NCBI GenBank assembly: GCA_017522515.1
Contig: JAFWZH010000117.1
Location: 1 to 17,800 of the forward strand
DNA: 17,800 bases
Source: Clostridia bacterium
GTDB lineage: Bacteria; Bacillota_A; Clostridia; UBA1212; UBA1255
Reading direction: 5' to 3'
The position numbers and the translations under genes are program-made. Within the stretch, counting starts at the first letter, position 1. The number at the start of each line of letters is the position of its first letter. Of this stretch, positions 66 to 17,147 are shown piece by piece. A model generated the notes under the pieces. That model searched no databases and was not told the DNA's origin. It saw nothing but the letters and a program-made list of their open reading frames with translations.

Positions 66-109
66 TTACATCATTCCTTTCTGTTCCTCACGTCCTTTCT
101 TTTTTGGAT

Positions 110-328: not shown

Positions 329-341
329 ACACGATTCTCCT

Positions 342-362: not shown

Positions 363-378
363 GGCGTAACCGCTTCGC

Positions 379-418: not shown

Positions 419-461
419 TTCCGGCCGCATCGCAAGGCACGGAGAAGGTCTATGTCAGCGA

Positions 462-598: not shown

Positions 599-600
599 GT

Positions 601-622
601 CTCCCGATTTCACAGCCGGGAG
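601..622. repeat. hairpin next to the long terminator stem
   Basis: CTCCCG (601-606) and CGGGAG (617-622) are perfect arms around a 10-base loop, four bases from the base of the terminator stem at 541-596. On a minus-strand transcript the order would be this hairpin, then the long stem, then the T-run. That is a compact two-hairpin RNA of about 90-100 bases. Whether it has its own promoter is not clear. Confidence 0.5.
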
Positions 623-653
623 GATGGCTCACTTTCGATTTTAAAATGTTGTT

Positions 654-671
654 TATACTTCTATAGAAGTA
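654..671. promoter_or_regulatory. operator-like palindrome, near copy of the repressor's own promoter site
   Basis: TACTTCTATAGAAGTA (656-671) is a perfect 16-bp palindrome. The 16 bases TATACTTCTATAGAAG (654-669) match the sequence over the -10 box of the LexA-like gene (minus strand 1602-1587) at 14 of 16 positions, and the two differences are a symmetric C/T and G/A pair. A further half-site CTTTTAT (672-678) is adjacent and overlaps the zinc-ribbon stop codon. Inference: a second binding site for the LexA-like repressor, placed to control whatever is transcribed across 450-640. Confidence 0.5.
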
Positions 672-674
672 CTT

Positions 675-917
675 TTATGCGTTAGCCGCAATGATTGGCA
701 GGGCAACATATCCCGCCGCAACCTTCGGTTTCTCAATCACTACAAGCATTGTGTTGCAATGCGCGCAACGATAAGTAGGTCCCGTGTAACCCGGTTCTGC
801 TATGCGCACGGTCACGTTCAGTTTCTCTCGTGGGTTCTTGCTGTATAGAATGGTGCGCTCGCATTCGGGGTTCGCACACTTTGCAATCGGTATCTTATCT
901 TGTGTAGCCTTACGCAA
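675..917 (-). CDS. small zinc-ribbon protein
   Basis: The product of about 80 residues has two cysteine pairs typical of a zinc ribbon, CANPEC (C14, C19) and CAHC (C51, C54), separated by about 31 residues. Such small proteins bind zinc and commonly act in nucleic-acid binding or as partners of larger proteins; no specific function is recognised. The TTG at 917 is preferred as start because GAGGTGA stands 5 bases before it. A GTG at 926 is possible but its ribosome site is weak. The gene starts within about 10 bp of the stop of the LexA-like gene on the same strand, so the two form an operon. By position it may modulate the repressor, but nothing in the sequence proves that. Confidence 0.65.
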   Translation of the reverse strand: MRKATQDKIPIAKCANPECERTILYSKNPREKLNVTVRIAEPGYTGPTYRCAHCNTMLVVIEKPKVAAGYVALPIIAANA

Positions 918-927
918 TAGAATCACC

Positions 928-1542
928 TCACTTTATATCTTTGATTACCTTCAAGGCAATGCCTTGTATCTCGATTTTACTCGGCTTCAACTCGCGGCGT
1001 TCCTTGGGATAGCTTTTGTTTTCTGCAAGCAGCCAGGGACGCCCGTTTTCGCGCTTCATAAAGCGTTTGAGCGTCGTGCCCTCATCTGTGAGCACGGCAA
1101 CCACTTGCCCGTCATAAGCCTCCTGAGCGCGTTTAATGAGCACGAGATCGCCATCATCGATGCCAATATCGATCATCGAATCGCCCGTCGTGCGAAGCAG
1201 GTAGCAATCGCCATCGATCCATTCCTCGGGAATGGCAACGTAACCTTGTATCTCCTGTCGGTAATCTTCCGGAGAACCACAAGGAATGCTACCGCAAATC
1301 ATAAGACGACGAAAGGCAACCTTCATAGCATCCTGCCCTCTAACGGAAAGCGTGTCCTTGCCGTTGTACTTGACAATGCCACGGTCACGCAGAGTGGTCA
1401 GATAGCGGTAGCCAACGGAATTGCTCATCTCCATGTACTCAAGGATGTCCTTGAACTTGGGCGATTCGCCGTTGTTCTCCCTTACGTAGCGGTGAATGAA
1501 CTCCGCCATTTGATTCAGTTTTTCTTCATTCATCCGCTTCAT
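928..1542 (-). CDS. LexA/UmuD-like self-cleaving repressor (S24 family)
   Basis: The 204-residue protein has an N-terminal winged-helix domain and a C-terminal S24 autopeptidase domain. Numbered from this ATG, the catalytic serine is S122 (in TTGDSMID) and the general-base lysine is K159 (in EGTTLKRF). They are 37 residues apart, as in E. coli LexA (S119/K156). A likely cleavage site is C88-G89 in SIPCGSP; Cys-Gly is the bond cut in UmuD, whereas LexA has Ala-Gly. The ATG at 1542 is chosen because GAGG lies 5 bases upstream; the longer frame to 1566 needs a TTG. The gene has a near-perfect sigma-A promoter with a palindrome over the -10 box, pointing to autoregulation and release on DNA damage. 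It is either the host LexA or an element-borne homologue. Its neighbours and an operator unlike the usual Gram-positive SOS box favour the latter. Confidence 0.88.
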   Translation of the reverse strand: MKRMNEEKLNQMAEFIHRYVRENNGESPKFKDILEYMEMSNSVGYRYLTTLRDRGIVKYNGKDTLSVRGQDAMKVAFRRLMICGSIPCGSPEDYRQEIQGYVAIPEEWIDGDCYLLRTTGDSMIDIGIDDGDLVLIKRAQEAYDGQVVAVLTDEGTTLKRFMKRENGRPWLLAENKSYPKERRELKPSKIEIQGIALKVIKDIK

Positions 1543-1568
1543 AAACGCCTCACAAAATTCAATCAATC

Positions 1569-1602
1569 ATAAAAGAACTTGAACTTCTTTTATAAAAGTA
1601 TA
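1569..1602. promoter_or_regulatory. candidate operators of the LexA-like gene
   Basis: Two overlapping symmetric elements lie across the start point. CTTTTATAAAAG (1587-1598) is a perfect 12-bp palindrome touching the -10 box. ATAAAAGAA (1569-1577) and TTCTTTTAT (1585-1593) are perfect 9-bp arms around 7 bases. The half-site ATAAAAG/CTTTTAT therefore occurs three times in 30 bp. A repressor bound here would block its own promoter. The second element could also fold as a hairpin in the leader RNA. Confidence 0.55.
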
Positions 1603-1625
1603 ACACAGAGGTCGGATTTTGTCAA
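1597..1625 (-). promoter_or_regulatory. sigma-A promoter of the LexA-like gene
   Basis: On the minus strand TTGACA (1625-1620) is followed by a 17-base spacer and TATACT (1602-1597), which is consensus at all but one base of the two boxes. Transcription would begin near 1590, about 48 bases before the ATG at 1542. This is the clearest promoter in the window. Confidence 0.85.
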
Positions 1626-1629
1626 TAGT

Positions 1630-1674
1630 TTTTTTCGAAAAAATTACGAGGTGGCATTTTTGAGTGCCACCTCG
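1630..1674 (-). terminator. intrinsic terminator upstream of the LexA-like promoter
   Basis: CGAGGTGGCA (1647-1656) and TGCCACCTCG (1665-1674) are perfect 10-bp arms around an 8-base loop. In the minus direction the stem is followed by TAATTTTTTCG, a proper T-run. The T-run is part of the palindrome TTTTTTCGAAAAAA (1630-1643). It would stop read-through from the hairpin/iteron region into the repressor promoter, or end an RNA made from that region. Confidence 0.7.
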
Positions 1675-1683
1675 TCGCAACCT

Positions 1684-1902
1684 GCGATAAAGTTTATTGC
1701 CTCGCGCCATCCTGGCACGAAGTGGTGTGGTTGGTTTTCAACCAGACCAAAGGCTCATTTTGAGCCTTTGATTTCTAAGAGTCATTTTGACCCTTTGCTT
1801 TTCAGTGGTCCAATTTAGCCCACTGATTTTCCATAAATCAACGGGCTGTTTTCGCCCGATGGTTTTGTCCTCTGTTTGGACGAAAAATACGCAAAATTGC
1901 GT
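1684..1902. repeat. cluster of ten short hairpins
   Basis: Inverted repeats follow one another almost without gaps: 1684-1700, 1706-1716, 1728-1744, 1748-1770 (10-bp arms around TTT), 1777-1795, 1802-1826, 1824-1840, 1842-1858, 1863-1886 and 1889-1902. Several share T-rich loops on the plus strand (ATTTT, GTTTT, TGTTTTC). The stems differ in sequence, so this is repetition of structure rather than of sequence. No credible protein is encoded; the minus-strand frame through it is low-complexity. It fits a single-strand-active site such as an origin or oriT, or a structured RNA. Confidence 0.6.
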
Positions 1903-1948
1903 GTATCTTTCGTGTTTTCTTCGTCTATCTTTCGTGTAAATTTCGTGT
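1894..1948 (-). repeat. five tandem 11-bp repeats
   Basis: On the minus strand five 11-base units follow each other exactly: ACACGAAATTT, ACACGAAAGAT, AGACGAAGAAA, ACACGAAAGAT and ACACGCAATTT (1948 down to 1894). The period is one turn of the helix, so a bound protein would meet every copy on the same face. This is typical of iterons or of partition and operator arrays, and unlike coding sequence. Confidence 0.75.
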
Positions 1949-1970
1949 TTGTGCATTTTCGGGTTCGAAT

Positions 1971-2055
1971 GTTCGTCCATAGAAGTGTAAGTAACCGCTA
2001 AAAGTTCGGCGGTAAAAGTGTATAGCGACATCAAAAGTTCGTCCGTAAAATGTGA
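1971..2055. repeat. three iterons spaced exactly 33 bp
   Basis: A 19-bp unit with consensus GTTCGKCSRTARAAGTGTA begins at 1971, 2004 and 2037, so the spacing is exactly 33 bp, or three 11-bp turns. The copies are GTTCGTCCATAGAAGTGTA, GTTCGGCGGTAAAAGTGTA and the more divergent GTTCGTCCGTAAAATGTGA. The linkers between copies are not conserved, which points to selection on binding sites rather than a recent duplication. They adjoin the 11-bp repeats. Inference: binding sites of a replication, partition or transfer protein. Confidence 0.65.
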
Positions 2056-2131
2056 TTTAGAGAGAGCTACACACTCTCATGTCATAAAAGTGCCGCATAC
2101 GGCAAAAAATTAGATGGACTTATACATAGAG

Positions 2132-2163
2132 AAAAAGGATGGCTCGTAATGAACCACCCTTTT
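2132..2163 (-). terminator. intrinsic terminator of the YjbR-like gene
   Basis: AAAAGG (2133-2138) pairs with CCTTTT (2158-2163). The stem continues with TGG/CCA and TC/GA across two mismatches around the loop GTAAT. On the minus strand it ends in CCTTTTTC. It starts four bases past the TAA of the YjbR-like gene. Confidence 0.7.
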
Positions 2164-2166
2164 ACT

Positions 2167-2547
2167 TTATTCAGTTGTCCTTTGGCGTTTCCGTTTGTCC
2201 TTTGTTGCTTCAAAACTTACATTCAGAAGGAATTGAATAACATCCGTGGGAGCATCGGGAAGAAGCACCGAAATCCAATGGAGTTTGTTCATATGATACG
2301 CTGGGTATACACCGTCAGCCGCGCCGAAAGAGCCGTACATCTCTGTGGGCAGCTTGAGATTGACAACATCGATCGCCTCGTCGCTGTCAAAGCCAAACTT
2401 GTGCCGTGATACGCGCATCACAATGGCATACCACTTGCGATTGTCCGTATGCCTGAGCACCGCCGTCTCAAAATCTTCATCAAACGGATAGTCCGGCGAT
2501 GTGCTGTATGTATCGAGGCAGTATTCAAGGAATTGTTGTTTTGTCAT
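2167..2547 (-). CDS. MmcQ/YjbR (DUF419) family protein
   Basis: The 126-residue protein has the family's features. These are an early acidic/aromatic stretch (DYPFDEDF), a VLRHTDNRKWYAIVM strand-turn, a VVNLKLP strand and the characteristic PAYHMNKLHWISVLL near residues 81-95. The fold resembles the CyaY/frataxin type and E. coli YjbR was proposed to bind DNA; the cellular role is not established. GGAGGT stands 7 bases before the ATG. It reads in the same direction as the helicase gene, with 40 bp between them, and ends at its own terminator. It is probably a chromosomal or cargo housekeeping gene next to the defence genes rather than part of them. Confidence 0.85.
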   Translation of the reverse strand: MTKQQFLEYCLDTYSTSPDYPFDEDFETAVLRHTDNRKWYAIVMRVSRHKFGFDSDEAIDVVNLKLPTEMYGSFGAADGVYPAYHMNKLHWISVLLPDAPTDVIQFLLNVSFEATKDKRKRQRTTE

Positions 2548-2587
2548 CGCCAGACCTCCATCTGATAAAATTGGATTCCTTTAATAG

Positions 2588-5500
2588 TTACTGAAGTTGT
2601 AATTTTTTTCGTATAATCTCCAAACTTCTTTGTGTAGAATCTTCTTCCTTAAAGCTTTCAACGACTTCTTCCATAATTTCAGAACTCCAATATATTTTTA
2701 ACTTTTTCTTGGCTCTCGTGATTGCTGTATAGAAAATGCCGTGAGTGATTTTCTCAGAGTTGCTTCTTGGAATAATGACTTTTACAGAGTCGTACTCTAA
2801 ACCTTGTGCTTTATGAATAGAAACAGCATAAGCGAGCTGGAAAGGAATTACAGAAAACATTCTATCTTCATCATTCGCATATTCAACAGAATCGTCATAA
2901 GCATATACGGAAAATCTAATGCGTGTTGACTCGGCTTCTGCCGATATAAACTCAATTCCATTCTTTTCACAAAGATCTTTCGTTAAGTTTGTTGCCACAT
3001 CAATTGTGAAAGAAATATCTTTGACTCCTTTTTCAATATTTACAATTTTACCTTTCAGATTGTTGTAAAGAATTGAAAAGCGCTGTGAATCGTTGAATAA
3101 AATATGATCTCCGATTTTATATGTCCACTCTTGCCAGGCAATAGGTTGACCCTGGGAATTGTCATTTTGGAAATAACTATTCATATTATTCAACCCAAAT
3201 TTCCCATCATAATTAAGGCATAATATCACTTCATCTTCATCTTTTTCTTCAAAGATTTTCTCACCTATCTCATCGGAGAACGGGCCATCCATAGCTAATT
3301 TTTCAACAATCAAATCCCCCTTGTGTCTAACATCGTCCCACAAGCTAACAATATCCGGGTCTTTTGTTCGCCATGTGTTGAGAAGTTCAACATTAGAACC
3401 ATAGGTACTGATTATCTCCTTAGCATAGAAAAACCAATTTCCAAATTCAATAGATTCAATTTGATGAATGTCTCCAGCAAGCACCAAGAACGTGTTAGGT
3501 TTCATTTTATCGAGGAACCTACACATTATTCGATTATCAATTGTGCTACATTCGTCAACGAAGATAACGTCATAATCAGGAAGTTCAACCTTTTTCGTAA
3601 AACTATCTATACTTACAAAATCGGCATTTGGTCCGGGATTGTCAATCCTTCTTTGCAAATTTTGTTTTGCTGTATGCGTTTTGGTAAGGAATAGCTTTTT
3701 TTGCTTCGACATCAAATTAGATATATAATTGATGAGTAATGTTTTTCCTGTTCCTGCTGCGCCATAAATCAAAAGAACATGGGAATTAACAAAAACATTT
3801 TGCAATGCAACCCTTTTCAAATCATCTTCAAAGGAAATACCGCAGCCTTTCAGATAAGCTTGGTTGTACTCTTTTTGACCTTGGTTTCCAAGTTTTGAGA
3901 GCTTCAATAGTTTAGATAGAATGCTTAAAGTTGATTGCTCATACGAATTAATTGATGCAAGCCCATTCTCAACATTTATTTCGTATCCTTGATCGCGCTC
4001 CCACTTATCGAGTTGAGAGTTATATGCTTTAATTTCATCATTGCTTGCGATCGATTCGACATCAAAATAGATTTCGCCGGTTTCTTTGATCTTGTTTTGG
4101 ATTTTCAAATAAGGGTTCGCAATTTCAAGTGATTTATTACCCGCGACATCCACGATGTTTCTGAAGTTATTTTCATTATTTGTCTTGCTTCCAAACAGAT
4201 TCGAAATATACGGATTTTTTTCAAACGGATAGCACTTTGTTGACAGATACAATTCGGGAGAAAGAACATATTTAGGTGACCACGGTAAAACATCAGTTAA
4301 AGTTTCTTCTCTCAAATTAATAAGGAGATATCTAACCGTGTTATGCCCGAAGTCTTCCGCTGTTTTTGAAAAAGAATTTTTAAGTTTAACCAGAACATCT
4401 CTAAAATATGAGGTGCTGGTATGACTATAAATTGAATCTAAAATTCCCGAAAACGAAACTTCTTGTAGGTCAATCAAATCCAACAAACTCATTCCAGACT
4501 CGGTCAAAAAACTCATCAGTGCATGGTATTCATTGTAATTAGTAGATATTTGAGTACGAATATGCAATATCTTTGCCAACTTGTTCAAGCAAGTGGGATC
4601 TATAGATACTCCCCAATTAGATATAATTTTAATTTTAGATTTGACACCCCATAGGTCTATTTCGGCATCAGTATACGCTATTTGAATAGAATAGTTGGTT
4701 GTGATATTTTCTTTTGTGTACGCAGTAATACGATTATACTTAGTTGCATATATACCCGCCAATTGAAGCGTGACTTCATAGTATCGCTCTCTACCAACGA
4801 AAAACGGGGTTTTCTTGATAATATAGAATCTTGATCCGCCTAATTTTTGAGGAGCGAGGTCAACCATTTTTATTGTATTAGCTACAAGTTCATAGTACTC
4901 ATCATCAAGTTTATCTGTATTAAGCGGAAACTTTTCTAAGTTTTGCAATACGGACACCCCATATTCTTTTTGAAGAAAATCTCTAATTTGCCACAAGAAA
5001 TTATAATATTTCAGCATCAATCGCTCTGATTGTCCTTCATCAGGTTCTCTGTCCTCAATGTATTTCAATCCTTTGAGAAAGGTGGCAAGATACTTTGTCT
5101 CAATTTTCAGCATAGCTTGTTCCCAAGCTAATTGAAGATTAGTTTTAACATTGTCCAATTTCAGCGAGTTTAAAAGTAATGCTGACCTGCACATGTCATA
5201 CATACGAGGCAAAATGGAATGTGAAACTTCTCCGCGAGTGTACTCTGCTTGTTCTATGAGATCTATGCTTGATGTAATATATTTATCACAAGAGGTAATA
5301 ATCTTATCGATTTCATTTTTGCAAAGTTCTTTTTCGCTTAGCTTATTCACAAATGAATGATGAAATGTTATCAGTTCAAGTTTTTTACAAAAGGAAATAA
5401 TACTTTCTTCTGTATCAAAAATTTCTTCATCCGCAGAAAAACTTATTGTAGCACTTCTGTTATTGAAATCTATAGAATTGATAAATTCGACTGACATGTA

Positions 5501-5893
5501 TTTCCAAAAAACTCTCTTTGCCCCTCTAATATCCGGATTAAGCACAATGAAGAGAATTCCCGGATCTAATGTGACATTCGTCGCTACAAAAGCAGGAAAA
5601 GCCAGACTACGCAACGAGTATTTTACAACTCCGTTCTTTTCAGTAAAATCGTGTGTACCTTTGATTTGAACAAAAAATGTTTGCGTAGGTCTTCTGTTGA
5701 TATCAGGATCAGGAACAAGTTCAAAAAAACCATCAATGTTTGGTTTTTTATCGTTTTTGGCAAACTCACAATTGATTCTTCCATTTGAGTTGAGAAAAGA
5801 CTCCAACGTTGTTACAGCTGCAACATCCTCTGCTGATCGCTCAGTATGAGTTTTTACATGTTCTTCTATAAGTTCTTTTGATTGTGATAACAT
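2588..5893 (-). CDS. DUF4365-like nuclease domain fused to an SF1 helicase
   Basis: This 1101-residue protein has two recognisable ends. The N-terminus (about 20-160) resembles DUF4365, a PD-(D/E)XK-like fold, with a candidate acidic residue D54 and Q76-I-K78 in place of ExK. The C-terminus (about 690-1080) is an SF1 helicase/ATPase of the RecD/Pif1-like kind. It has Walker A GAAGTGKT near 710-717, Walker B with DEC near 780, GDIHQ near 807, SIHKAQGLEYDS near 1027, and FYTAITRAKK near 1055. Residues about 165-650 match nothing I recognise. AAGGAG lies 9 bases before the ATG. The gene follows the SEFIR gene after 111 bp that contain a possible promoter. DUF4365-helicase/ATPase proteins are frequent in defence islands. 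Inference: an anti-phage nuclease-helicase acting on foreign or damaged DNA, alone or with SEFIR. Confidence 0.78.
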   Translation of the reverse strand: MLSQSKELIEEHVKTHTERSAEDVAAVTTLESFLNSNGRINCEFAKNDKKPNIDGFFELVPDPDINRRPTQTFFVQIKGTHDFTEKNGVVKYSLRSLAFPAFVATNVTLDPGILFIVLNPDIRGAKRVFWKYMSVEFINSIDFNNRSATISFSADEEIFDTEESIISFCKKLELITFHHSFVNKLSEKELCKNEIDKIITSCDKYITSSIDLIEQAEYTRGEVSHSILPRMYDMCRSALLLNSLKLDNVKTNLQLAWEQAMLKIETKYLATFLKGLKYIEDREPDEGQSERLMLKYYNFLWQIRDFLQKEYGVSVLQNLEKFPLNTDKLDDEYYELVANTIKMVDLAPQKLGGSRFYIIKKTPFFVGRERYYEVTLQLAGIYATKYNRITAYTKENITTNYSIQIAYTDAEIDLWGVKSKIKIISNWGVSIDPTCLNKLAKILHIRTQISTNYNEYHALMSFLTESGMSLLDLIDLQEVSFSGILDSIYSHTSTSYFRDVLVKLKNSFSKTAEDFGHNTVRYLLINLREETLTDVLPWSPKYVLSPELYLSTKCYPFEKNPYISNLFGSKTNNENNFRNIVDVAGNKSLEIANPYLKIQNKIKETGEIYFDVESIASNDEIKAYNSQLDKWERDQGYEINVENGLASINSYEQSTLSILSKLLKLSKLGNQGQKEYNQAYLKGCGISFEDDLKRVALQNVFVNSHVLLIYGAAGTGKTLLINYISNLMSKQKKLFLTKTHTAKQNLQRRIDNPGPNADFVSIDSFTKKVELPDYDVIFVDECSTIDNRIMCRFLDKMKPNTFLVLAGDIHQIESIEFGNWFFYAKEIISTYGSNVELLNTWRTKDPDIVSLWDDVRHKGDLIVEKLAMDGPFSDEIGEKIFEEKDEDEVILCLNYDGKFGLNNMNSYFQNDNSQGQPIAWQEWTYKIGDHILFNDSQRFSILYNNLKGKIVNIEKGVKDISFTIDVATNLTKDLCEKNGIEFISAEAESTRIRFSVYAYDDSVEYANDEDRMFSVIPFQLAYAVSIHKAQGLEYDSVKVIIPRSNSEKITHGIFYTAITRAKKKLKIYWSSEIMEEVVESFKEEDSTQRSLEIIRKKLQLQ

Positions 5894-5950
5894 ACGTTAT
5901 TTCTCCTTATTGAGCTATCAACTTAAATGCTTTGAACATACAAAACGCCT

Positions 5951-5981
5951 ATTATAAAAGAGTTGAGCACCTTTCGTACAA
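5951..5981 (-). promoter_or_regulatory. possible promoter of the helicase gene
   Basis: On the minus strand a perfect TATAAT (5956-5951) is preceded by TTGTAC (5981-5976) with a 19-base spacer, longer than the ideal 17. It lies in the 111-bp gap after the SEFIR gene, 58 bp before the helicase ATG. No terminator is seen in the gap, so read-through from SEFIR is also likely. Confidence 0.4.
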
Positions 5982-6004
5982 GATCTATCATAAAGAACAA
6001 GCAT

Positions 6005-7090
6005 TTATTTGTTTTTTCTAAATGGCTTGTTTTGGTATAATACTACCGCGTCTTGATCATTGTCCGTTATATCTTTTACATCACGATAAATAAGTTTCTT
6101 TTTGTGTATCGCATAGTCCATTAGCGGTTCGATTTGTCCTGTTTTTTCATTAAGAATAGCAGGGGCTAAATAATATTCATTGAATTTATAATATATTTCT
6201 TTGAAGAGATTATAATTTTTAAAATTATCCGTAGGATTAGCTCTTATAATTCTTGAAACATTGAGGATCATAGTTTCGTCGATAACACATCCCTGTGCTT
6301 CAGCGCGTTTGATTGCTTCGTCAAGGTTAGTTCCAACAACAACATAATAACCTTTTTCTTCATCAGGAATATCCCCTTCGATTAATGATATACGTATGTC
6401 ATCATTTACATCATTTTTTCCAACATTCGCAATCCAATCTGAAAATATCTTCTTAGCATATTTCCCATTACAAAAAGGAAGTAATAATGTAGGCAAATCT
6501 GTATACCCAAGACAAAAACCTGCCCCACGCCATACCGCTTTATCCCATGTTTTTATGTCAATAAGAGATGTTACAAATAAAGTTTTTCTTTCCTTTTTAG
6601 GTAAAGGTCTTAATTTCCCCAAAGGAGGTTTTTCACTTGTTTTGACGCCTCTTAAACGCCAATATAACTTATCAAAACCTTTATCGGAACTCACATTGTA
6701 ATATGTAGCTCCTTGAATTGGGGTAGGAATATACTTTAAATCATCATCTTCGAAAACAACGGGGATAAACCGATTATTATCAGAACCAGACATGTATAGT
6801 TTCTGATAAATAATATTACTTTCCCATTTTACACCTTTGCCTCCGTCTGTTTTACCCAAAACTTTTTGCTGGTAACCAGAAGAACCAATGATGATTACAA
6901 AGTCAGATTCTTCAATTTGTCTCTCCATCCATCTTGGCCACCCTTCGGGCGGAGACTCTTCGTATTGATCCAACGAAGTATCTATTCCTTCTTGCCTAAG
7001 ATGATTAGAGAATTGTAAAACCTGATCAGCAAGCTCTACAGAGTCTTGCGAATAACTAATAAAAACTTTAGGATTATAGTTTTCTTCCAT
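6005..7090 (-). CDS. SEFIR (TIR-like) domain defence protein
   Basis: The N-terminal 150 residues of this 361-residue protein form a SEFIR domain. It starts with KVFISYSQDS (8-17), then GIDTSLDQYE (35-44), WPRWMERQIEESDFVIII (51-68), and a W89-E90 pair in GVKWESNIIYQKL. The pair sits where TIR NADases keep their catalytic glutamate. Bacterial SEFIR proteins have been reported as single-protein anti-phage defences that deplete NAD and kill the infected cell. The C-terminal 190 residues are not a family I recognise; conspicuous parts are WRGAGFCLGY and IRISLIEGDIP. They are presumably the sensor half. There is no signal peptide or membrane segment, so it acts in the cytoplasm. The gene starts 18 bp after the metallopeptidase gene, so it is co-transcribed with the type I operon. 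The ribosome site (AAAGGGA) is rather far from the ATG, which would keep expression low. Confidence 0.82.
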   Translation of the reverse strand: MEENYNPKVFISYSQDSVELADQVLQFSNHLRQEGIDTSLDQYEESPPEGWPRWMERQIEESDFVIIIGSSGYQQKVLGKTDGGKGVKWESNIIYQKLYMSGSDNNRFIPVVFEDDDLKYIPTPIQGATYYNVSSDKGFDKLYWRLRGVKTSEKPPLGKLRPLPKKERKTLFVTSLIDIKTWDKAVWRGAGFCLGYTDLPTLLLPFCNGKYAKKIFSDWIANVGKNDVNDDIRISLIEGDIPDEEKGYYVVVGTNLDEAIKRAEAQGCVIDETMILNVSRIIRANPTDNFKNYNLFKEIYYKFNEYYLAPAILNEKTGQIEPLMDYAIHKKKLIYRDVKDITDNDQDAVVLYQNKPFRKNK

Positions 7091-7108
7091 GCTATAAACG
7101 TCCCTTTC

Positions 7109-7771
7109 TCAAATTATTTCCATTATTTTTCGATTTGCCTTCAACCAGTTTTGTTCCAATTCAAACTTCGGAAGAACAGTTCTTACCCTCACCCAAAATT
7201 GTTTACTGTGGTTTTTGTAATCAATGTGACTTAATTCGTGAACAACGACATAATCAATAACAGACATGGGGCACATTACTAATCTCCATGCAAAATTCAA
7301 GGAATTATTTTGGCTACAGGAGCCCCATCTGTGCTTTGCATCTGTTATCTTTATGGAATTTGCTTGTACTCCCATCAGCTTCGAATAGCGTTCAACCCGC
7401 TCTGAAATAATAAACAATGCTTGTTTTTTCAAATACTCAGTTAAAACATCTTTCGAATGTTCTGAATTTGGCAACTTGATTACTTTGCCATCGAAGGCGA
7501 CATCTTGAGTTTCACAAAGCTCAACGATATAATCTTCACCAACAAAAGGAACAACATCGCCCGTTGACATCGTTATTGAAGAATACTTCTCGTCAAAAGT
7601 CGCTACACTATTTATTTTTTTAGAAATCCACCCTTGCTTTTCAGCAACAAACGAGTTGATTTCCATAGTGCTTGCAATGTGCGGAGCTCTGACGATCAAT
7701 TCTCCATTTGTATTAACAACCAAAGCAATTGTTTTTCTATTGCTACGAATTATTTGTTTTGGTTCTATCAT
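7109..7771 (-). CDS. YgjP/DUF45-type zinc metallopeptidase of the type I operon
   Basis: The 220-residue protein has HELSH (178-182) with a third histidine ligand H188 in NHSKQFW, and the family motif KHRWGSCSQNN (146-156) ahead of it. It belongs to the YgjP/WLM-like (DUF45, M48-related) zinc peptidases. These are repeatedly found just downstream of hsdR in type I systems, but their role there is not established; turnover of HsdR is a common guess. The ATG at 7771 is chosen over an in-frame one at 7795. AAGGA stands 7 bases before it, and ATGA overlaps the hsdR stop, the hallmark of translational coupling. No signal peptide is visible, so it should be cytoplasmic. Confidence 0.87.
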   Translation of the reverse strand: MIEPKQIIRSNRKTIALVVNTNGELIVRAPHIASTMEINSFVAEKQGWISKKINSVATFDEKYSSITMSTGDVVPFVGEDYIVELCETQDVAFDGKVIKLPNSEHSKDVLTEYLKKQALFIISERVERYSKLMGVQANSIKITDAKHRWGSCSQNNSLNFAWRLVMCPMSVIDYVVVHELSHIDYKNHSKQFWVRVRTVLPKFELEQNWLKANRKIMEII

Positions 7772-10700
7772 AATTCGTTCCTTCCATAGTGGCAATATGC
7801 CAATTCCATGATTTTTTGAGCTATATTCTTACGATTGCTGAAAACTGACGGAATTGAGCTGAACAAAGGATTTTTCAGCAGTACATTGATGATGTATGTA
7901 CGCAATTGCTTTTGAAGAGAAATATTGCCCCAGAAATTGATAGCACTTGTATTCTTCTTAATGGTGCACAAAATATCGGTAACAATATCCTTGAGTTGAT
8001 TGAAGTCCTGTTCGGACAAATCCTCGTATGGCTTATCTCCGAAGATCTCTTTTTTTACTAATGCAAAGAAAGGCATCTCGGTTTTAGGATCAAAGCCATA
8101 TGTGTTTTCACGCTCACGTCCAAGTATAATATCTTCTTGACGCATTTTTTCAAGAGCTGCGTAAAGATCGTTCCAATTATCTTTGAGAAGTTGCAATATC
8201 TTATCCAATTTATCGCTCATTCTATCAAAGAATTCGGGGTCTTTAGGCTGATTAATATTGATATACTCTCTAATTGCGTAAGTTAATTCATCACACTTTT
8301 GGCGAACAGACTTTGTGCCCTTGTCTTTTACCCCAAATTCGGGTGACAAAATAGAAACAGGCGGTATCTTGGGGTCAACTCCGTTAACCTTCAAGTATTC
8401 TTCAACAATTGCCCTTACTTTGTCACTTGCATCATGCATGGAAAATCGAGGATCTCGGCAACTGTTGGCTACCGATTGGCGTATAAACGACAGCATTTTG
8501 TAGTCGTTTTTGTAATCCAATGCTGCAGGATCGGGCAAAACTCGGTCAAACAACTTTGAAATTTGCCTGAACAGTGCATTGAATTTTTCGCGCAATTCGG
8601 GATCAGCAACAAGCTCCTGAATAATCAGCGGAGCTTCATCAATTGATTTTGCTCCAATATCATCTCGTATAAATTGCTTCATAGTCAAGAAAGAAGTGTG
8701 AAGCTTATCGATATCTTCTTCTTTCTTCTGCAAGACATCCAACATTTCTTCAATGTCAGGGTCTGCATATTTTGACAAAGCGGATTTAAGATGATTGGTA
8801 ACACCAATATAGTCAACCACATAACCGCATTTTTTATTATTTCCGCAGGTTCTGTTAACTCTTGCTATAGCTTGAAGCAGATTGTGATCTCTTATCACTT
8901 GATCGAGATACATAACCTGCTCAACGGGCGCATCAAATCCGGTTAACAGCATACTTTTAACGATAATAATACCGTAATTACTGTCGTTACCGTGTTCATC
9001 TTCTTCACCGAACTGCATCTTAAATCCAGCAATGATATTATCGTTTCTCGATTCATCTGCAAACTCTTTCAAATGAGGCTTATCGTTATTTGAAGAAGAT
9101 ATGATACAAGCCGCTTTTAGCTTCTCCAACAATTCAATATTCACATTGTTGGGATTGCTTTCTTTCAACTCTGCAATTTTGATTGGCAAAAGTTCATTGA
9201 TAGCACAATAGTAACGATATGCCGCCTCTCTTGAGTAAGCAACAATTTGTGCCTTGAATCCGTTAACAAAAACAGTGTTGATGTAGTGATTCAACATATC
9301 GTTTGCTTTATTACGGATAACAGCCTTGTCCTCAAGATATGCTTTCAACACTGTTTTATTCAAAAGCATTTCTTGTTCTTCCGAAGTAATCATACCGAAT
9401 ATATCGGCGAATTTTTCATTCATTGCTTCGGGATCTGTAATCTCACTCTCGGTAGCTCTGCCCTCGTATTTGATTTCAACGACAACTTCATCTTCTACAG
9501 CTTGACGCATGGAATAAGTATCTATGTATCCACCAAAGGTTTCTGCCGTTTTGTCGATGGGCGTTCCGGTAAATGCAACCTTTACGGAATTCGGCATAGA
9601 TTTCCACATGTTAGCAGCAAGATCACTGTATTGGCTTCTATGAGCTTCGTCAATCATCAACAAAATATTAGATGATTCATTGAGTACGGGGAAACTCGTT
9701 TCCTCGCCGCGCTCTCCAAACTTATGTACCATTGCAATAGTGATGTCGGAAGCTGTGTTTTGTATTAGCTTACGAAGACCTTCACTGCTTTTTGCAACAT
9801 GGCAAGTGTACTTTACGCTGCTACTTGTCTTGTATAATTGCTTTTGCAAGTCTGTGCGGTCAAGAAGCAAGACGATTTTGTAATTTGCAAGATCCGCAGA
9901 ATTGTACATTTTACGGATAACGAACATCATAGTAAGCGATTTGCCGCTACCCTGTGTATGCCAAACTGTACCGCCTTTATTGAAGGTGGTGTCGCCGTTG
10001 CGCAAACGTTCAATAATCTTTCTTGCACCGCGATATTGTTGGTATCTTGCTACGATTTTCAAAGTGCGACCTTCATCATCTTCTTTATAAACCGTATAGT
10101 TATGCAAAATATCCATGAAATTGGAAGGTGAAAGCATTCCTTGAATCAGTATTTCCTGACTCGAGGGAGCTCTGCCTTCTACGATGTCAGAGAGACGATA
10201 GGGATAAGGATCTTTCCACTCGATATAGTGTGCGTGTTTTCCCGTAATTGTTGAATAGCGTGCTTCATTAAACGACGTCGATACCATGAACTGATTATAA
10301 AAGAACAGTTCGGGAACGCCTTCAGCTTCAGCAGCACCTCGACGATCCTGATATCTCATCAATTGCTCGATACCTTCATGAATCGGATCGGTAATTCCGG
10401 GGGATTTACATTCGATTACAACCAGAGGCAAACCGTTAACAAACAGTACGATATCGGGAATAATATGTGCACCGATGCCGGGAATTTGAATTTTGTACTG
10501 CGAAATAGCAAGATAGCTATTAAGCGTATTATTGGGATCAAAATGATCCACATCAGAGAAATCAATAACACGCACAGGACAATTTACTTCTCCCGTTTCT
10601 TCGTTGAACGCAGAAAAACCAAGAGTTATTCTGTCAAAAACCTCAATGTTTGCATCCAAGAGATTTCTTGAAGAATACTGTTGCATTTCCATCACAAGAT

Positions 10701-10926
10701 CATCGGCTTGAGCATCGGTAAGCCAAGGGTTCAATCGAAGGAGTGCAGAACGAAATTCGCTGACGATAATAACCTCTGACAACGATGTTCTATATGAGCT
10801 TTCGGGATCATGCTTTTGGCTATCAGTCAGTGAAAGTGTTTTCCAACCTGCCGCCGACAACTGATCCATGAAAGGCTTTTCAACAAAACTGTATTCACTT
10901 GCTCTGACTCTATCTCTTTCACTCAT
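7768..10926 (-). CDS. hsdR: type I restriction enzyme, R subunit
   Basis: The product of about 1052 residues has the full HsdR order. The PD-(D/E)XK nuclease has D158 and E172-C-K174 (IPDIV...VVIECKSP). The SF2 translocase has Walker A HTQGSGKS (323-330), DEAH (426-429) and TGTP (453-456). It also has a GFDAP block and a QAIARVNRT block (motif VI) further on. The remaining C-terminal part is helical and would bind the methylase core. It translocates DNA with ATP and cuts at a distance from unmethylated target sites. The ATG at 10926 is taken because AGGAG stands 8 bases upstream; a GTG at 10935 is the alternative. It overlaps the hsdS stop by 8 bp and the next gene by 4 bp. All key residues are intact, so it should be active. 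Confidence 0.96.
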   Translation of the reverse strand: MSERDRVRASEYSFVEKPFMDQLSAAGWKTLSLTDSQKHDPESSYRTSLSEVIIVSEFRSALLRLNPWLTDAQADDLVMEMQQYSSRNLLDANIEVFDRITLGFSAFNEETGEVNCPVRVIDFSDVDHFDPNNTLNSYLAISQYKIQIPGIGAHIIPDIVLFVNGLPLVVIECKSPGITDPIHEGIEQLMRYQDRRGAAEAEGVPELFFYNQFMVSTSFNEARYSTITGKHAHYIEWKDPYPYRLSDIVEGRAPSSQEILIQGMLSPSNFMDILHNYTVYKEDDEGRTLKIVARYQQYRGARKIIERLRNGDTTFNKGGTVWHTQGSGKSLTMMFVIRKMYNSADLANYKIVLLLDRTDLQKQLYKTSSSVKYTCHVAKSSEGLRKLIQNTASDITIAMVHKFGERGEETSFPVLNESSNILLMIDEAHRSQYSDLAANMWKSMPNSVKVAFTGTPIDKTAETFGGYIDTYSMRQAVEDEVVVEIKYEGRATESEITDPEAMNEKFADIFGMITSEEQEMLLNKTVLKAYLEDKAVIRNKANDMLNHYINTVFVNGFKAQIVAYSREAAYRYYCAINELLPIKIAELKESNPNNVNIELLEKLKAACIISSSNNDKPHLKEFADESRNDNIIAGFKMQFGEEDEHGNDSNYGIIIVKSMLLTGFDAPVEQVMYLDQVIRDHNLLQAIARVNRTCGNNKKCGYVVDYIGVTNHLKSALSKYADPDIEEMLDVLQKKEEDIDKLHTSFLTMKQFIRDDIGAKSIDEAPLIIQELVADPELREKFNALFRQISKLFDRVLPDPAALDYKNDYKMLSFIRQSVANSCRDPRFSMHDASDKVRAIVEEYLKVNGVDPKIPPVSILSPEFGVKDKGTKSVRQKCDELTYAIREYININQPKDPEFFDRMSDKLDKILQLLKDNWNDLYAALEKMRQEDIILGRERENTYGFDPKTEMPFFALVKKEIFGDKPYEDLSEQDFNQLKDIVTDILCTIKKNTSAINFWGNISLQKQLRTYIINVLLKNPLFSSIPSVFSNRKNIAQKIMELAYCHYGRNEL

Positions 10927-12175
10927 TTTCAACACTCCTTTCTAATAATGGTTCTACTGACACTTTGTGCGTTAGGAGATCTTGCATTAGTCCTGTCTTA
11001 ATAGCTTGGTGCTTAATGAGATGTTTTTTTGCATTAGCTAAACAGCTGTCTATGTGTTCAAGTGCTCGATATATATCTTCCTGTTCTCTTGTTTTGCTTG
11101 GATATACGATAAACATTTTATACAGTTGTTTTCTTTGGATACCTTTAGCTGTGGTGCCCGAATTGTATTTTTGAAGATACGATTGAAATGAATCCGATGC
11201 AAGATAATAATACAAATAACGATTTTTACAAATATCTTGTTTGCAATTAAAAACTATTGTTCTCTGACTTAAAATATATTTTCTTTCTTCAGGGACTAAA
11301 GCCACATTACCCAAGGGAGCTTCCATTGTGAAAGCAATATAATCTTTGTGAATGTCACCTTGTGACATCCATTTCCTGTATAACTTTTCTGAACCGAAAT
11401 TTGTTTGTTTATTAAAATCTATTTCACCCATACAAACATTACTGGCAGATAAGGCCGGGATATCCCCTCCCCATTCCATTCCAAGCTTTTTGGGGGTTCT
11501 ACCACGATAATCATAAAGCTTTTCAATTACAGTTTCAAAAGGAACGCATTCCCATTCAACAGGAATTTTACCCAACGGAGAATCTTTATACTTATGTGTT
11601 TTGGGAGAACGAATTACACCATTTTCGTCAATGCCATTGGCGAGAAGATCCTGCATTAAGCCTTCTTTTATAGCCTTGTATTTTTCAATAATGGCTTTTG
11701 TTTTACTAATTGCTTCGTCGAGTGTTGTAAGAATTTGAGCGATTTTTCGTTGCTCTTTTATATCTTCGGGATATACTATTTCAATTTTTGACAATTCTTT
11801 TTGCGTCAGCTTACTACGAGTACCACCTGCAATATAGTACAAAACATTTTTGTGTTCTAAAGAGTAAAAAATATAGTCTTGGTCATACGCAGGGAGGGCG
11901 CGTAAAATATGAGCATGATTGTTTACCCATGATTTTCCGTTGATCCTGTATGCAATAGGACGCGTTTCATATTGCTCAAAATTACCGCCATCTTCAGCAA
12001 TGAGGATCAATGGTTCATCAAATATAAAGTCGTCGATGTATCCAACCTGTCCGTTTGCTCCGTAATAAGGAATATCGCCTTGAATTGAGCTTCTTTCTGT
12101 CCCAGAAATCGGAATTCTTAGCTTATCAAGATTTTGACAAGTGGTTGCTATTGTTCCTTTGTTCCACTTACCCAT
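10919..12175 (-). CDS. hsdS: type I restriction-modification specificity subunit
   Basis: The 418-residue protein has two target recognition domains. The first (about 1-140) precedes a conserved helical spacer with [16 protein letters not shown] and [12 protein letters not shown] (141-178). A linker with [10 protein letters not shown] (199-208) opens the second domain (about 205-370), which is followed by the second helical repeat with ALEHID and [12 protein letters not shown]. HsdS reads the bipartite DNA target for both methylation and cleavage; the two halves set the two half-sites, which cannot be read off the sequence. The start codon overlaps the hsdM stop in ATGGGTAA, and TTGGGG serves as ribosome site. 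The gene is intact, with no second hsdS or recombinase nearby, so phase variation is not evident. Confidence 0.95.
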
Positions 12176-14738
12176 TGATATACCCCAAACCTTTCAAGAA
12201 AGCATTAAGCACTTTTTCCGCGTTAGAACGATCTGTGAGCAACGAATTAAGACTTGTAAAATATTTATCGTACAGATGTTGAACCGCTTTAACCGTTTTA
12301 TTTGATTCTTCTTTCAAATACTTATCAAGCTCTTGCACAAATCCTTCGTGAAGTATTTGCATGATCAAAGCCTCGCACTGTTCTTCTGTCAGTTCAATGC
12401 GGATAGCATCGATTTTTGCTTCCAATTCCTCGGTTTTCTTCTTAAGGATCTTGTTAAGATTTGTTTTAACTTTTTTGAGCTCGGTGATTCTCTTAAGTTG
12501 CTGTTTCGCCAATTCTACATCTTTCGCGTTCTTGGAGTTGTTTTTGATTGCATTCAGATATGCTCTTACAGTCTTTTCACTTACCTCAACTTCTTCGCCA
12601 TCTTCATCTGTTTCGGTGTCCATTTCTATACTTGCAAGATATTCATCAAATTCGTTTTGTGCATCGGCAATAGACTTTTCAAGGTCGGCAATTGCAACAA
12701 GTTCTTCAGGGAAGTGCTCAGTTGCAATTTTTTCATCGGAAACAAGCGCAGCAACAAAGCCCTCAGAACGAATCGTTTTGAAGACATTTTTAATCATAAT
12801 AACTTCTTTAACAGTTACCTTGGTTTCTGTTCCATCCGACGAAGTTTCAATTTCGGTTGACTCACGAACTGTATAGCTGTGATCCCACCAGTTAGCAAAA
12901 ACACCATTGCTTTGGAAGTTGTCAAGAATGCCGACAGGAGTTAATTCTGCTTCCAAAGCTGAGGTATAGGTTTTCTTGAAATTATAGATATCAAGCTTTT
13001 CATAGATGTTTCTGATATCAACGATGGCTTTGCTCCAAAAGCTTTCAAAAGCAGCGTGCATTTTATCGTTTGCACCGGTAACACCTTCACACGAAAGAAT
13101 AGTGTCCTTTATACCTTGCTTTGTGGAACAATTGCTATTAAACAAACAAAATTCATCGGTATACTCATCAAAAATAACATCCTCGGAAATGCCGTATTTC
13201 GCAATTTTACCATTAAGAGCTGCTATTTCTGCCTTAGGAACACCACCCGAAATATGTGCACGCACATTATGCGGTTCTTGCGCAGGGCTGTTATCCACAT
13301 AACGGCGAATATTCAAGTTGCTATCGTTTGTATCCTCGTTAAGGATATCATCAATAGAGATGAATTTTGAATATCCGGGGACTTCCAATTTGTTATCAAA
13401 GACATTTACGATTTTTTCGCTATCTTCGGGGCGAAGATAGTTCTGATTTTTGCCCTCGCCATATTCCGCATCTGCGTTAATAATCAGAATACGTCTGTCC
13501 TTTACCTTTTTCTTGTTAACAACAATCAAGCAAGTAGGGATGCTTGTCCCGTAAAACAAATCCGGAGGCAAACTGATAATTGCTTCAATGATATCATCAT
13601 CAAGGATGCCACTTCTGATAACTTTTTCCTGACCACCACGGAACAAAACACCATGAGGCATAACGGTAATCATCATGCCGTCGGGCTTCAAACTTGCAAT
13701 CATGTGCTGAACGAACATAAGGTCTGCTTTTTTGCCTGTTTCGGGAGCCCAACCATAGCAAAAACGATTTTGACAAATCATCTTGTCGCTACGCTTGTAG
13801 TTCTGAGAGAAGGGTGGGTTCGCAATAACTCGGTCAAATTGTTTTGTGTTGCCATTTTCTACCCAATGCGGTGTTTCCAGCGTATCTCCGTTTTCGATGT
13901 TAGCATCGGGAATGTCGTGCATAATCATATTCATCTTACAAATAGACCATACACTCGCCGCATCATCCTGTCCGTAAAGTGCCAAATTGGTAGCATCTTG
14001 ACCTTGCTGCTCTACATACTGTTTGCTCTGAATCAGCATACCGCCCGAGCCAACGGTGGGGTCGTATATTTCGTTACCTTCTTGAGGCTTAATAAGACGA
14101 ACCATAAGTTGAACAACAGATGCAGGGGTATAGAATTCGCCACCTTTTTTGCCTGCGCTATCAGCAAAGTTCTTAATCATATACTCGTAAGCTGCACCAA
14201 GCAAGTCCGGGAATACGAAATTGTCATTTGTAAGCTTGTACTTATTGAAATGACGAATAAGATCGATAAGTTTAGCATCACTGATGATTTGTTTGCTCTT
14301 AACCTTTTTAGCAAAATCGATAGAGTCAAAAACGCCGGTCAGCTCTGCGTTGCTACGAGAAATTTCCAAAAGAGCTCGTTTGAGTCTTGATGCGACGGAG
14401 ACTTTGAGATGCAATACGCCGGAGAATTCTTCTTCGGGTCTGCTATTAGGAACGATAAAGGGCTCGCACTCCCAACGTGCCAATTTGGGAACAAAGAACG
14501 TAGCGCCGTACGATTCTGGATCTTCCAGTCTTTCGGCAATCTGTGCTTCGGTATTTCCATCCTTGCGATATTCAGCTTCGAGTTGTTTTCTCTTTTGCAT
14601 GAAGTTGTCAGAAAGACGCTTCAAGAACAGCATTCCGAAAATATATTCCTTAAATTCGGAAGCATCCATCTTTCCTCTAAGTATATCAGCAGCTTTTAAT
14701 AGATAGTTTTCTAACTGCGAAATTGTTATTTTGCTCAT
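12168..14738 (-). CDS. hsdM: type I restriction-modification N6-adenine methylase subunit
   Basis: Residues 1-190 are the helical HsdM N-terminal domain ([20 protein letters not shown]). The methylase domain follows with GEFYTP (200-205), the SAM-binding motif DPTVGSGG (226-233) and the catalytic motif IV NPPF (307-310). It transfers methyl groups to adenine N6 in the HsdS target and forms the M2S1 core. At 856 residues it is far longer than the classical HsdM of about 500-530. From about residue 490 there is an extra region ending in a long acidic and lysine-rich coiled-coil stretch (about 690-800). Longer HsdM forms exist in Bacillota and Bacteroidota, so this is a variant rather than an error. 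GAGG stands about 10 bases before the ATG. It is the first gene of the hsdMSR block. Confidence 0.95.
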
Positions 14739-14798: not shown

Positions 14799-17147
14799 TT
14801 ATTTATCGAGTTCCTTCAATAATTCTGCTAAAACACCAATTGCTTTTGTAGGACCTTGGAAGGTAGCTATAACACCTTTATCTTTCATTTCTTTGAGGGT
14901 TAAGCTGTTATGCGGATAGGACTTTAATAATTCCAAACGAATATATTTATCACTGGGTGCAATGGCGTCATCTTTGTAGTATTCAGAATCATCTATAATA
15001 CGATCTGAAGCGCTAAGATTTGTAGCAATCACACGGCACTTATAAGAAATTTCCGCATAAGGCAATGTAAGGTAAATATATACAATATCATCAACTTCGT
15101 AATTGGCGTGTTGCGCCCATTCAATTTGGGCCATATTATTAAATGCTCCAATCACATCATAATAATCCGTATTGCCTGCAATAACCCAAACTGTGTTACC
15201 TTCAACGCCGTTATCATTGTTGAAAACTTTTTTGGCAGTTTCAAAAGAAATAGAGCTATACTCTTCGTCAGTCCAACCACCAAACTCGGTTTTGATTTGA
15301 TCGATATCCCAGATATCTTTGGCGATATTCAAGTACGTTCCAGCTCGTTCTTGAATGAATGCTTTATTCATTTTTGCATATGGTTTTATACCATATTTTT
15401 TAGCTAACGGTATAAAGAGTGGGTTGTTCTCGTGGAAAAGGCTGTTCATTGCTTTAGCCAGGACAACACTATCACCGAGATATTTCTGCACTTTCGAATC
15501 ATACTTCATTTCCTGGTAGCTTCTATTCTTATCTTTGGTAAGAATCAGTAAGTTTCCGATGTTGTGTCTTGTGGTATTAAAATCACGTTCATCGGCGAAT
15601 CCATCGGAATAGTCGGAATACATATCCGGTAAGATGTGCTCAATATCAAACGGATTCTTTGCTTTTCGATCAACGTATGTATCAAATTCAGAAGGATTAC
15701 CCATTTGAACATTGATATAAGACGCAAATCGAGCAAGGAAATGCAGAGTGTATCTCTTGAAGAATTGGTTTTCATAATTCAGTTCTTCGAATTTGTCCCA
15801 ACCAACATGTGCATCTTTTAACGCCTTGGTAAGAACAATAGCAATTTCTTTGACGCTCTTATTTCTGATATTAACCAAAACCTTAAACAAGAAGACTTTA
15901 TTTGTATTAAAGTTTGCTTTCTTGAAATTGAGAATTCGATTAGATGCAAAAATGTCAACGAATTTTGCCACGAGCTTTATTTTCTCATTGACAACGGAAG
16001 GTTCGTCATCCTTATCGATGGCAGAGATCATAAGCAATGTTTGATAGTTCAAATCTCTGTTTGCGTTATAAAATACACTTTCAAACCCAGCAGTGAGTTT
16101 TTTGGAATATTTCTTTATGTCAAGATAAAGTTCAACCATTTGGCTCATTTCTTTGAGCACAAATTCTTTATAGTCCTTGGATTGGGTTAATCCCATCTGC
16201 TTTTTAGCATTCTGACGTACCCATTCGTGGAACTTCTCACCAAGAAGCTCATAGTCTTTGTCTTCAGCATCTTTTTTGCCCTCACGGAGCGATGTGGCAT
16301 AATTTCCGCGAAGCCAAAGAGAAACAAACTCAACATCAGCCGTATTAACAATACCACTTTGTTCGGATTCGGATGCAGATTTAATCTTGTTAACAAGCTC
16401 CTGCCACTTAGCATTTACTTCACGCTTATCTTCTTCACTTACTTCATTTAAGACAAATGCTTTCAGCATTTCCGCGCTATTTAAACTCAAGCCCCGGTCA
16501 TTCATCGTAATGAAAATTGTATGAGCTTCCTGTTCGGAAGGAGTTACAATTTCAAGTAGCAAGATTTTGTGCATCATCCAACATGCAAAATACGGTAATG
16601 CGTCGGGTGTAATTTCGTCCCTGAACAAGTCGATAATATCAAGATATCTATCAAGAAGCGTTTGAGAGCTTTCGTCCGTAGGTTGGAAATTTGTTTCGCC
16701 TTTATACAAATGATCCATACATGCCTTGCGCTCGGGGACATTAATGTTAAATGTCTTTTTTGCACCAAAAGGACTGGAAAGAATCATGTTAGGCAGCATA
16801 CTGTCAAGCTCATGGTTACCTTGATCGTGAAGCATCTTGTTAATGTACATCAACAGTAATGTCAAAGAAGTCAAACGCTGTTGTCCGTCAACAATTTCCT
16901 TTGTTGAATCGTCACCAGTACGAATGATACTTCCCATAAAGTAATAACCATATTGAGCTACTTCATCTGTATCTTCGTGTTTAAACTTGCTGTTTTCGTA
17001 ATACATTAAAAAGCAATCCGTTATATCGTTGATAAGCTGCTCAATTTGTTTTCTACCCCAACGGTATTCTCTTTGATAAACATTGATCGTAAAAGTTTTG
17101 CTATTCAGTATTTCATATAGTGTTTCTGTTTTATTGATTCTTTCCAT
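14799..17147 (-). CDS. DUF262-DUF1524-EVE protein, GmrSD-like modification-dependent restriction candidate
   Basis: Three parts can be seen in 782 residues. DUF262 (about 5-240) has the ParB/Srx-like YQREYRWG (24-31) and the hallmark DGQQR (87-91). A DUF1524 HNH-type nuclease follows, with FDIEHILPDM (near 500) and HNIGNLLILTKDKN. A PUA-like EVE domain begins near residue 650 (TVWVIAGNTDYYDVIGAFN, then DDIVYIYLTLPY). In GmrSD, DUF262 uses nucleotides and DUF1524 cuts DNA carrying glucosylated hydroxymethylcytosine. EVE/PUA-like domains flip and read modified bases, so the fusion suggests its own modified-base sensor. AAAGGA lies 8 bases before the ATG. It reads into hsdM with a 60-bp gap, matching the habit of type IV enzymes to sit with type I systems. 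The modification recognised cannot be told from the sequence. Confidence 0.85.
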   Translation of the reverse strand: MERINKTETLYEILNSKTFTINVYQREYRWGRKQIEQLINDITDCFLMYYENSKFKHEDTDEVAQYGYYFMGSIIRTGDDSTKEIVDGQQRLTSLTLLLMYINKMLHDQGNHELDSMLPNMILSSPFGAKKTFNINVPERKACMDHLYKGETNFQPTDESSQTLLDRYLDIIDLFRDEITPDALPYFACWMMHKILLLEIVTPSEQEAHTIFITMNDRGLSLNSAEMLKAFVLNEVSEEDKREVNAKWQELVNKIKSASESEQSGIVNTADVEFVSLWLRGNYATSLREGKKDAEDKDYELLGEKFHEWVRQNAKKQMGLTQSKDYKEFVLKEMSQMVELYLDIKKYSKKLTAGFESVFYNANRDLNYQTLLMISAIDKDDEPSVVNEKIKLVAKFVDIFASNRILNFKKANFNTNKVFLFKVLVNIRNKSVKEIAIVLTKALKDAHVGWDKFEELNYENQFFKRYTLHFLARFASYINVQMGNPSEFDTYVDRKAKNPFDIEHILPDMYSDYSDGFADERDFNTTRHNIGNLLILTKDKNRSYQEMKYDSKVQKYLGDSVVLAKAMNSLFHENNPLFIPLAKKYGIKPYAKMNKAFIQERAGTYLNIAKDIWDIDQIKTEFGGWTDEEYSSISFETAKKVFNNDNGVEGNTVWVIAGNTDYYDVIGAFNNMAQIEWAQHANYEVDDIVYIYLTLPYAEISYKCRVIATNLSASDRIIDDSEYYKDDAIAPSDKYIRLELLKSYPHNSLTLKEMKDKGVIATFQGPTKAIGVLAELLKELDK

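Follow-up and report, generated by a model that had tools for sequence, protein, structure and literature searches.

Proteins of the bSEFIR type, which reportedly go back to work by Millman and colleagues in 2022, are counted as single-gene defenses. SEFIR is also listed as a system of its own (PMC12322248). Two further precedents concern effectors lodged in modification-based defense operons. The gene for PrrC sits inside a type IC restriction-modification (R-M) operon; the R-M enzyme keeps PrrC in check until the phage peptide Stp inhibits that enzyme and PrrC is set free (PMC2610378, PMC3874165). A survey of suicidal back-up effectors in bacteriophage exclusion (BREX) systems names DNases and RNases in the part considered here; its main text contains neither "TIR" nor "NADase," and "SEFIR" does not occur (PMC12839542). 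Here we analyze a 17,800-nucleotide stretch from a Clostridia bacterium (assembly GCA_017522515.1, contig JAFWZH010000117.1, positions 1 to 17,800; hereafter, the window), in which a gene for a SEFIR-domain protein stands directly before a helicase gene behind type I R-M genes. A previous inspection of the letters alone (the sequence-only reading) had proposed that the two constitute a two-gene defense unit. The mining of defense islands often goes wrong over whether neighboring defense genes belong to a single system or to more than one. Here, genome comparison splits the attractive SEFIR-helicase pair and points to the host operon instead.

The SEFIR protein of the window resembles bSEFIR (PDLC03957) in its SEFIR domain, matching C-terminal region, conserved tryptophan-glutamate pair, and defense neighborhood. 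It differs in being encoded by the penultimate gene of a type I R-M operon, and its breakdown of nicotinamide adenine dinucleotide (NAD+) is putative. The helicase matches the PADLOC candidate PDC-S53 over residues 194-1099 (E = 4.5e-290, 963 bits; profile positions 3-895 of 900), whereas its N-terminal 193 residues, DUF4365-like in the window protein, are absent from that profile. As in EcoprrI-PrrC, a suicide-type effector gene is joined to an hsd operon, but the window has a SEFIR gene in place of an anticodon nuclease and carries it after hsdR and ygjP. With the BREX back-up effectors, the locus shares the placement of auxiliary effector genes inside a modification-based defense operon, the effectors being DNases and RNases in the part of that survey considered and SEFIR here. 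The components of the operon are already known or catalogued. In the open-licence literature searched, the term "PDC-S53" did not occur in the matches listed, and titles and abstract beginnings described neither the window operon nor SEFIR inside BREX; given the limitation to open-licence sources, this is weak evidence of absence.

The SEFIR-helicase pair is a local arrangement and not a family-wide unit. A genome scan retained 80 of 114 SEFIR relatives, and we counted contexts on the 35 loci of the full-length type (L001-L034 and L067), including two with broken SEFIR frames (L026 and L028) that were excluded from the tree. The helicase adjoined SEFIR in only two of these loci (L001 and L002), both of which share the hsdM-hsdS-hsdR-ygjP order of the window with HsdM and HsdR at 99% identity. 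The nearest other SEFIR proteins (L003-L009), 62-69% identical and forming one supported clade with that of the window, had no helicase beside them in any of seven loci. Their flanks comprised at least 2.8 kb downstream in each case (2.8 kb in L004), with 0.46 kb and 1.2 kb upstream in L004 and L007, respectively.

The reverse count gave the same picture. Among 33 genome loci of the helicase, collected without the group-search matches weaker than an E value of 1e-60 (e.g., ordinary RecD-like helicases), SEFIR occurred in the same-strand run of the helicase in three (L001, L174 in genome G002, and L148 in genome G060) and next to it in two; nine of the 33 runs extend to the upstream end of the available stretch, and several contigs are short. 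All adjacent cases represent the operon of the window in near relatives. The genomes G001, G002, and G008 entered this set by way of SEFIR; without their loci, SEFIR is in the run in 1 of 30 and adjacent in none, and the number of runs with type I hsd genes falls to 4 of 30. The rarity of neighboring homologues, one half of what the sequence-only reading had itself named as speaking against a two-gene unit, is seen from both sides (2/35 and 2/33).

Co-occurrence at the level of genomes is similarly sparse. The helicase was found in 12, SEFIR in 5, and both in 2 of 394 genomes of one order. Leaving aside G002, the center of this sample, which has both, the counts were 11 (E ≤ 1e-60), 4 (E ≤ 1e-30), and 1 of 393; independence predicts about 0.1 genomes with both, and a single observed case proves little. 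The helicase was present in 1 of 35 genomes in the genus of G002, 1 of 176 in the family of G001, and 1 of 4 in the genus of G060, each time the center itself. A protein catalogue contained 36 helicase clusters (74-93% identity) on 92 contigs and one SEFIR cluster with >69% full-length identity on 6 contigs, a contrast that is only indicative since a single SEFIR cluster may go with several alleles of the helicase and short contigs are numerous. Plasmids yielded seven helicase records (E ≤ 1e-40) and one SEFIR record (E ≤ 1e-30), none in common, and phages yielded two helicase records. Among viral contigs, the helicase profile matched three short, distant forms, none with SEFIR detected beside it, and the SEFIR profile found one domain-only match.

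On balance, we lean toward reading the locus as one type I R-M operon that carries separately working extra defense layers at its 3' end. HsdMSR would cut unmodified DNA as the first layer. The helicase would be a separate DNA translocase with an N-terminal nuclease of the PD-(D/E)xK type (DUF4365-like), probably attacking phage DNA. The SEFIR protein would act as an abortive-infection effector of the bSEFIR type, with a C-terminal region that senses infection or failure of the first layer; once triggered, its SEFIR domain would break down NAD+ as a last-resort suicide back-up. The layers, expressed from one transcript, would thus come into play in the order of restriction, attack on DNA by the helicase-nuclease, and NAD+ loss. 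Since the relatives of each gene mostly occur apart, the two probably count as distinct additions to the operon and not as halves of one system, and we infer that they are mutually independent.

The identification of the SEFIR protein held up, with Pfam matches to SEFIR (9.9e-18) and TIR_2 (1e-14) and a PADLOC bSEFIR match (1.2e-61) that covers residues 1-299 and so reaches beyond the SEFIR domain. The W89-E90 pair named by the sequence-only reading is present and invariant in all 20 aligned SEFIR relatives; by eye, V-K-W-E is found in the ThsB-like TIR of L032 as well. We take the conserved glutamate to be the catalytic residue of the TIR/SEFIR active site. Judged by family and fold, the protein most likely breaks down NAD+; the matches of the fold search cover residues 5-168, so that the C-terminal half was barely tested. 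None of the 10 proteins scanned in the window, a set without the small open reading frames, matched a ThsB-type TIR partner as in Thoeris.

SEFIR genes keep varied company, with BREX foremost among their defense contexts. In 7 of the 35 loci (L018, L019, L021, L022, L023, L027, and L029), the gene lies between brxC and pglX of a BREX operon, the BREX genes having been named with PADLOC in L022 and by sequence clusters in the other six. This placement is kept down to 55-57% SEFIR and 35-36% BrxC identity, a span that depends on L027, since the other six are mutually close. Just before SEFIR, four of these operons (L018, L019, L022, and L023) encode a 159-162-aa protein with an N terminus that appears hydrophobic by eye. 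ThsB-like TIR genes adjoin SEFIR in four loci (L008:11478-12116, L028:9386-9964, L032:9528-9992, and L067:9164-9688); these pairs may be Thoeris-like, with SEFIR as the effector. An LmuB-like ATPase gene overlaps SEFIR by 4 nt in L006 (7335-11098), and a fragment of the same family is found in L004 (2-1587), so a Lamassu-like unit with a SEFIR effector is possible. SEFIR follows type II or IIG R-M genes in L008, L009, and L013, and the remaining full-length loci have mixed or unrecognized neighbors.

These contexts bear on the most interesting alternative, which we nevertheless regard as unlikely, namely, that SEFIR is a guard in the manner of PrrC, silenced by or watching the type I R-M enzyme and depleting NAD+ once a phage anti-restriction protein disables it, with the helicase as a bystander. 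The layout agrees with such a role, as SEFIR begins 18 nt after ygjP, which itself overlaps hsdR, and the helicase is 111 nt off. The distant SEFIR of G060 is embedded between hsdS and hsdR, although that of the window comes after hsdR-ygjP and not between hsd genes. The SEFIR genes lodged in BREX operons, the PrrC precedent, and the suicidal back-up effectors described for BREX point the same way. However, hsd genes were recognized near SEFIR in only L001 and L002 of the 35 loci, one operon type (recognition, here and for the helicase, was by BLAST to the window proteins, with Pfam added for chosen loci, so distant hsd genes may escape). Many SEFIR loci lack a recognized R-M or BREX neighbor, Pfam listed only SEFIR and TIR_2 up to an E value of 10 without a PrrC anticodon-nuclease domain, and bSEFIR is regarded as a defense in its own right. 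With no greater confidence, SEFIR could be a recurrent guard layer of DNA-modification defenses (flanked by hsdS and hsdR or following hsdR in type I R-M, between brxC and pglX in BREX), silent while the machine is intact and killing when a phage disables it, and the helicase-nuclease of the window would then be a third layer. If SEFIR does guard R-M and BREX enzymes, the guard principle of PrrC would extend to NAD-depleting effectors, which would also account for the presence of such genes inside modification operons.

The sequence-only reading had described the second gene as a nuclease-helicase with a DUF4365 domain. The helicase part stands: besides PDC-S53, its Pfam, NCBIfam, and PDB matches are of the superfamily 1 RecD/Pif1-like type, and its Walker A (711-718, with K717 as the lysine named earlier) and Walker B (780-783) motifs are invariant in all 21 helicases compared. 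The DUF4365 part is indirect. No Pfam match to DUF4365 was found on the window protein among the matches listed (25 of 32 families), and PF14280 is carried by 5 of 120 helicase relatives among the matches listed. D54 and Q76-x-K78 near the N terminus are likewise invariant in 21 of 21, and we read them as a motif of the PD-(D/E)xK type. The N-terminal domain is thus a putative DUF4365-like nuclease. Many relatives are about 900 aa long and lack it, and the predicted structure model of the helicase is too poor for use (predicted local distance difference test score, 64.7).

Members of the helicase family often stand alone, and repeatedly they close an R-M operon or lie close to its end. In 6 of the 33 loci, which represent five operon types (L141, L145, L146, L148, and the window type), the helicase follows type I hsd genes in the same run and has the last place in the operon or one near it; L145 also contains an AAA/PtuB pair. 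The helicase is alone in 11 loci, some of them at contig ends, and the rest of the loci outside type I operons have mixed neighbors. The L146 operon reads hsdM-hsdS-hsdR-ygjP-helicase, the gene order of the window minus SEFIR, and by this comparison SEFIR looks inserted. At L141:8100-14562, an R-M-like operon joins an HSDR_N-methyltransferase fusion to hsdS and the helicase; hsdR was not recognized in that stretch, and the helicase may take over the role of HsdR.

From these operons one could argue that the helicase is an R-M accessory, working like RecBCD to unwind and degrade the ends that HsdR leaves on DNA, and that SEFIR was inserted between them. The terminal position of the helicase in five operon types, the L146 order, and the composition of L141 agree with this proposal. 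We consider it quite improbable, in that 27 of 33 helicase loci have no recognized type I hsd gene in the run and, by annotation, four plasmid and two phage copies (6 of 9 records) have no hsd genes either, though in phage phi1605 a type IIS restriction gene lies near the helicase on the opposite strand.

Several short forms of the helicase have other genes directly upstream. At L153:7130-11320, a spbK-like TIR-domain gene (TIR_2, 1.3e-5, below Pfam's cut-off; PADLOC spbK, 1.6e-24) follows two cytosine methyltransferase genes and lies 3 nt ahead of a PDC-S53 helicase of the short form. In phage or prophage-like sequences (L154:8524-12176, L179:5164-8775, L180:5209-8856, and L082:8389-12279), a gene for a 277-383-aa protein lies 6-23 nt before a short helicase. 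PADLOC LmuA matches the N terminus of this protein in L154 and L179 and not in L082, L180 being outside the scan, and the C-terminal region is common to all four. The idea that the 278-aa gene before the phage helicase copies encodes a split-off DUF4365 domain received no support from profile searches with hidden Markov models or from HHalign, a weak test with four sequences.

The history of the operon can be followed by comparing the window with its two sisters, L001 and L002. The hsdS genes are only 38-40% identical, and both sisters carry other genes at the position of GmrSD. Between the window and L002, identity at fourfold sites is 86% for hsdM, 86% for hsdR, 99% for ygjP, 80% for SEFIR, and 43% for the helicase; at third positions it drops to 65% in the last 40 codons of SEFIR and is low from there on. 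The SEFIR/helicase gap aligns end to end with the sister operons at 75.7% identity. The helicase (window 2588-6100 versus L001 and L002) was therefore likely exchanged as a cassette with a breakpoint in the last 40 SEFIR codons, a position that is approximate because hsdM also contains low-identity patches (60-70% at third positions in three windows of the comparison). The simplest interpretation of the alignment is that the helicase gave way to a diverged allele whose source copy likewise carried SEFIR ahead of it, in which case the SEFIR-helicase arrangement would predate the exchange and was kept. A different combination occurs in G060, in which the operon reads hsdM-hsdS-SEFIR-hsdR-helicase, with gaps of 2 and 15 nt on the two sides of SEFIR; its SEFIR and helicase are about 31% and 51% identical to those of the window, respectively. 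In L001:11196-14503, the helicase is split over two frames and SEFIR is intact, which may reflect decay or an assembly error in this metagenome-derived genome.

Several points weigh against separately working layers. The SEFIR-helicase order survived the exchange of helicase alleles, so two or more diverged copies have retained the linkage. G060 holds both families in another R-M operon, non-adjacent, and amounts to a second case in which both were joined to type I genes. For the reason given above, the contrast between helicase and SEFIR is overstated by the contig counts, and the samples are small and mostly from gut Clostridia. Even so, a true two-gene unit, in which contact with phage DNA would lead the helicase-nuclease to activate the adjoining SEFIR effector, appears very improbable: it can draw on the adjacency of the genes on one strand with no terminator-like site between them, on their linkage through the exchange, and on the TIR gene before the L153 helicase, but it is opposed by the locus counts, all from one operon, by the counts in the order sample (a single genome with both genes among 393), and by the broken helicase frame beside an intact SEFIR in L001, assembly error allowed for.

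As the sequence-only reading had it, SEFIR directly precedes the helicase on the same strand (Table 1), and a simple scan of the coding strand finds no terminator-like site between them. Its placement of the pair behind a type I R-M operon also applies, with the amendments that ygjP intervenes between hsdR and SEFIR and that GmrSD precedes hsdM. HsdM, HsdS, and HsdR are encoded together, and the minus-strand order is GmrSD-hsdM-hsdS-hsdR-ygjP-SEFIR-helicase, the last two being the final genes. Overlaps of 8 nt (hsdM/hsdS), 17 nt (hsdS/hsdR), and 28 nt (hsdR/ygjP) suggest, together with the short gaps, that the genes form one operon with SEFIR nearer to the R-M part than to the helicase, and that the R-M, SEFIR, and helicase genes are cotranscribed. 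Promoter-like sites in 2400-7900 occur at the level of chance (20 found versus 20.5 ± 4.5 in shuffles), and a TATAAT-like stretch in the SEFIR/helicase gap is not conserved in the sister operon.

Table 1. Genes of the operon and the SEFIR/helicase gap, with positions in the window
Feature	Position	Strand	Remark
GmrSD-type (DUF262/DUF1524) protein	14799..17147	-	60 nt upstream of hsdM
hsdM, methyltransferase subunit	12168..14738	-	
hsdS, specificity subunit	10919..12175	-	
hsdR, type I restriction subunit	7768..10935	-	
ygjP, YgjP-like metallopeptidase	7109..7795	-	Between hsdR and SEFIR
SEFIR-domain protein, 361 aa	6005..7090	-	bSEFIR architecture: SEFIR/TIR-like N-terminal domain and conserved C-terminal region
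SEFIR/helicase intergenic gap, 111 bp	5894..6004	-	AAGGAG, ribosome-binding-site-like, ahead of helicase start
Helicase, 1101 aa	2588..5893	-	Putative DUF4365-like nuclease-type N-terminal domain and SF1 RecD-like helicase; PADLOC PDC-S53

Upstream of the operon, the window contains a gene for a PDDEXK_9 domain protein (17219-17800) that is truncated by the window end. Downstream are genes for a LexA-like S24 peptidase repressor and a YjbR-family protein (928-1566 and 2167-2547).
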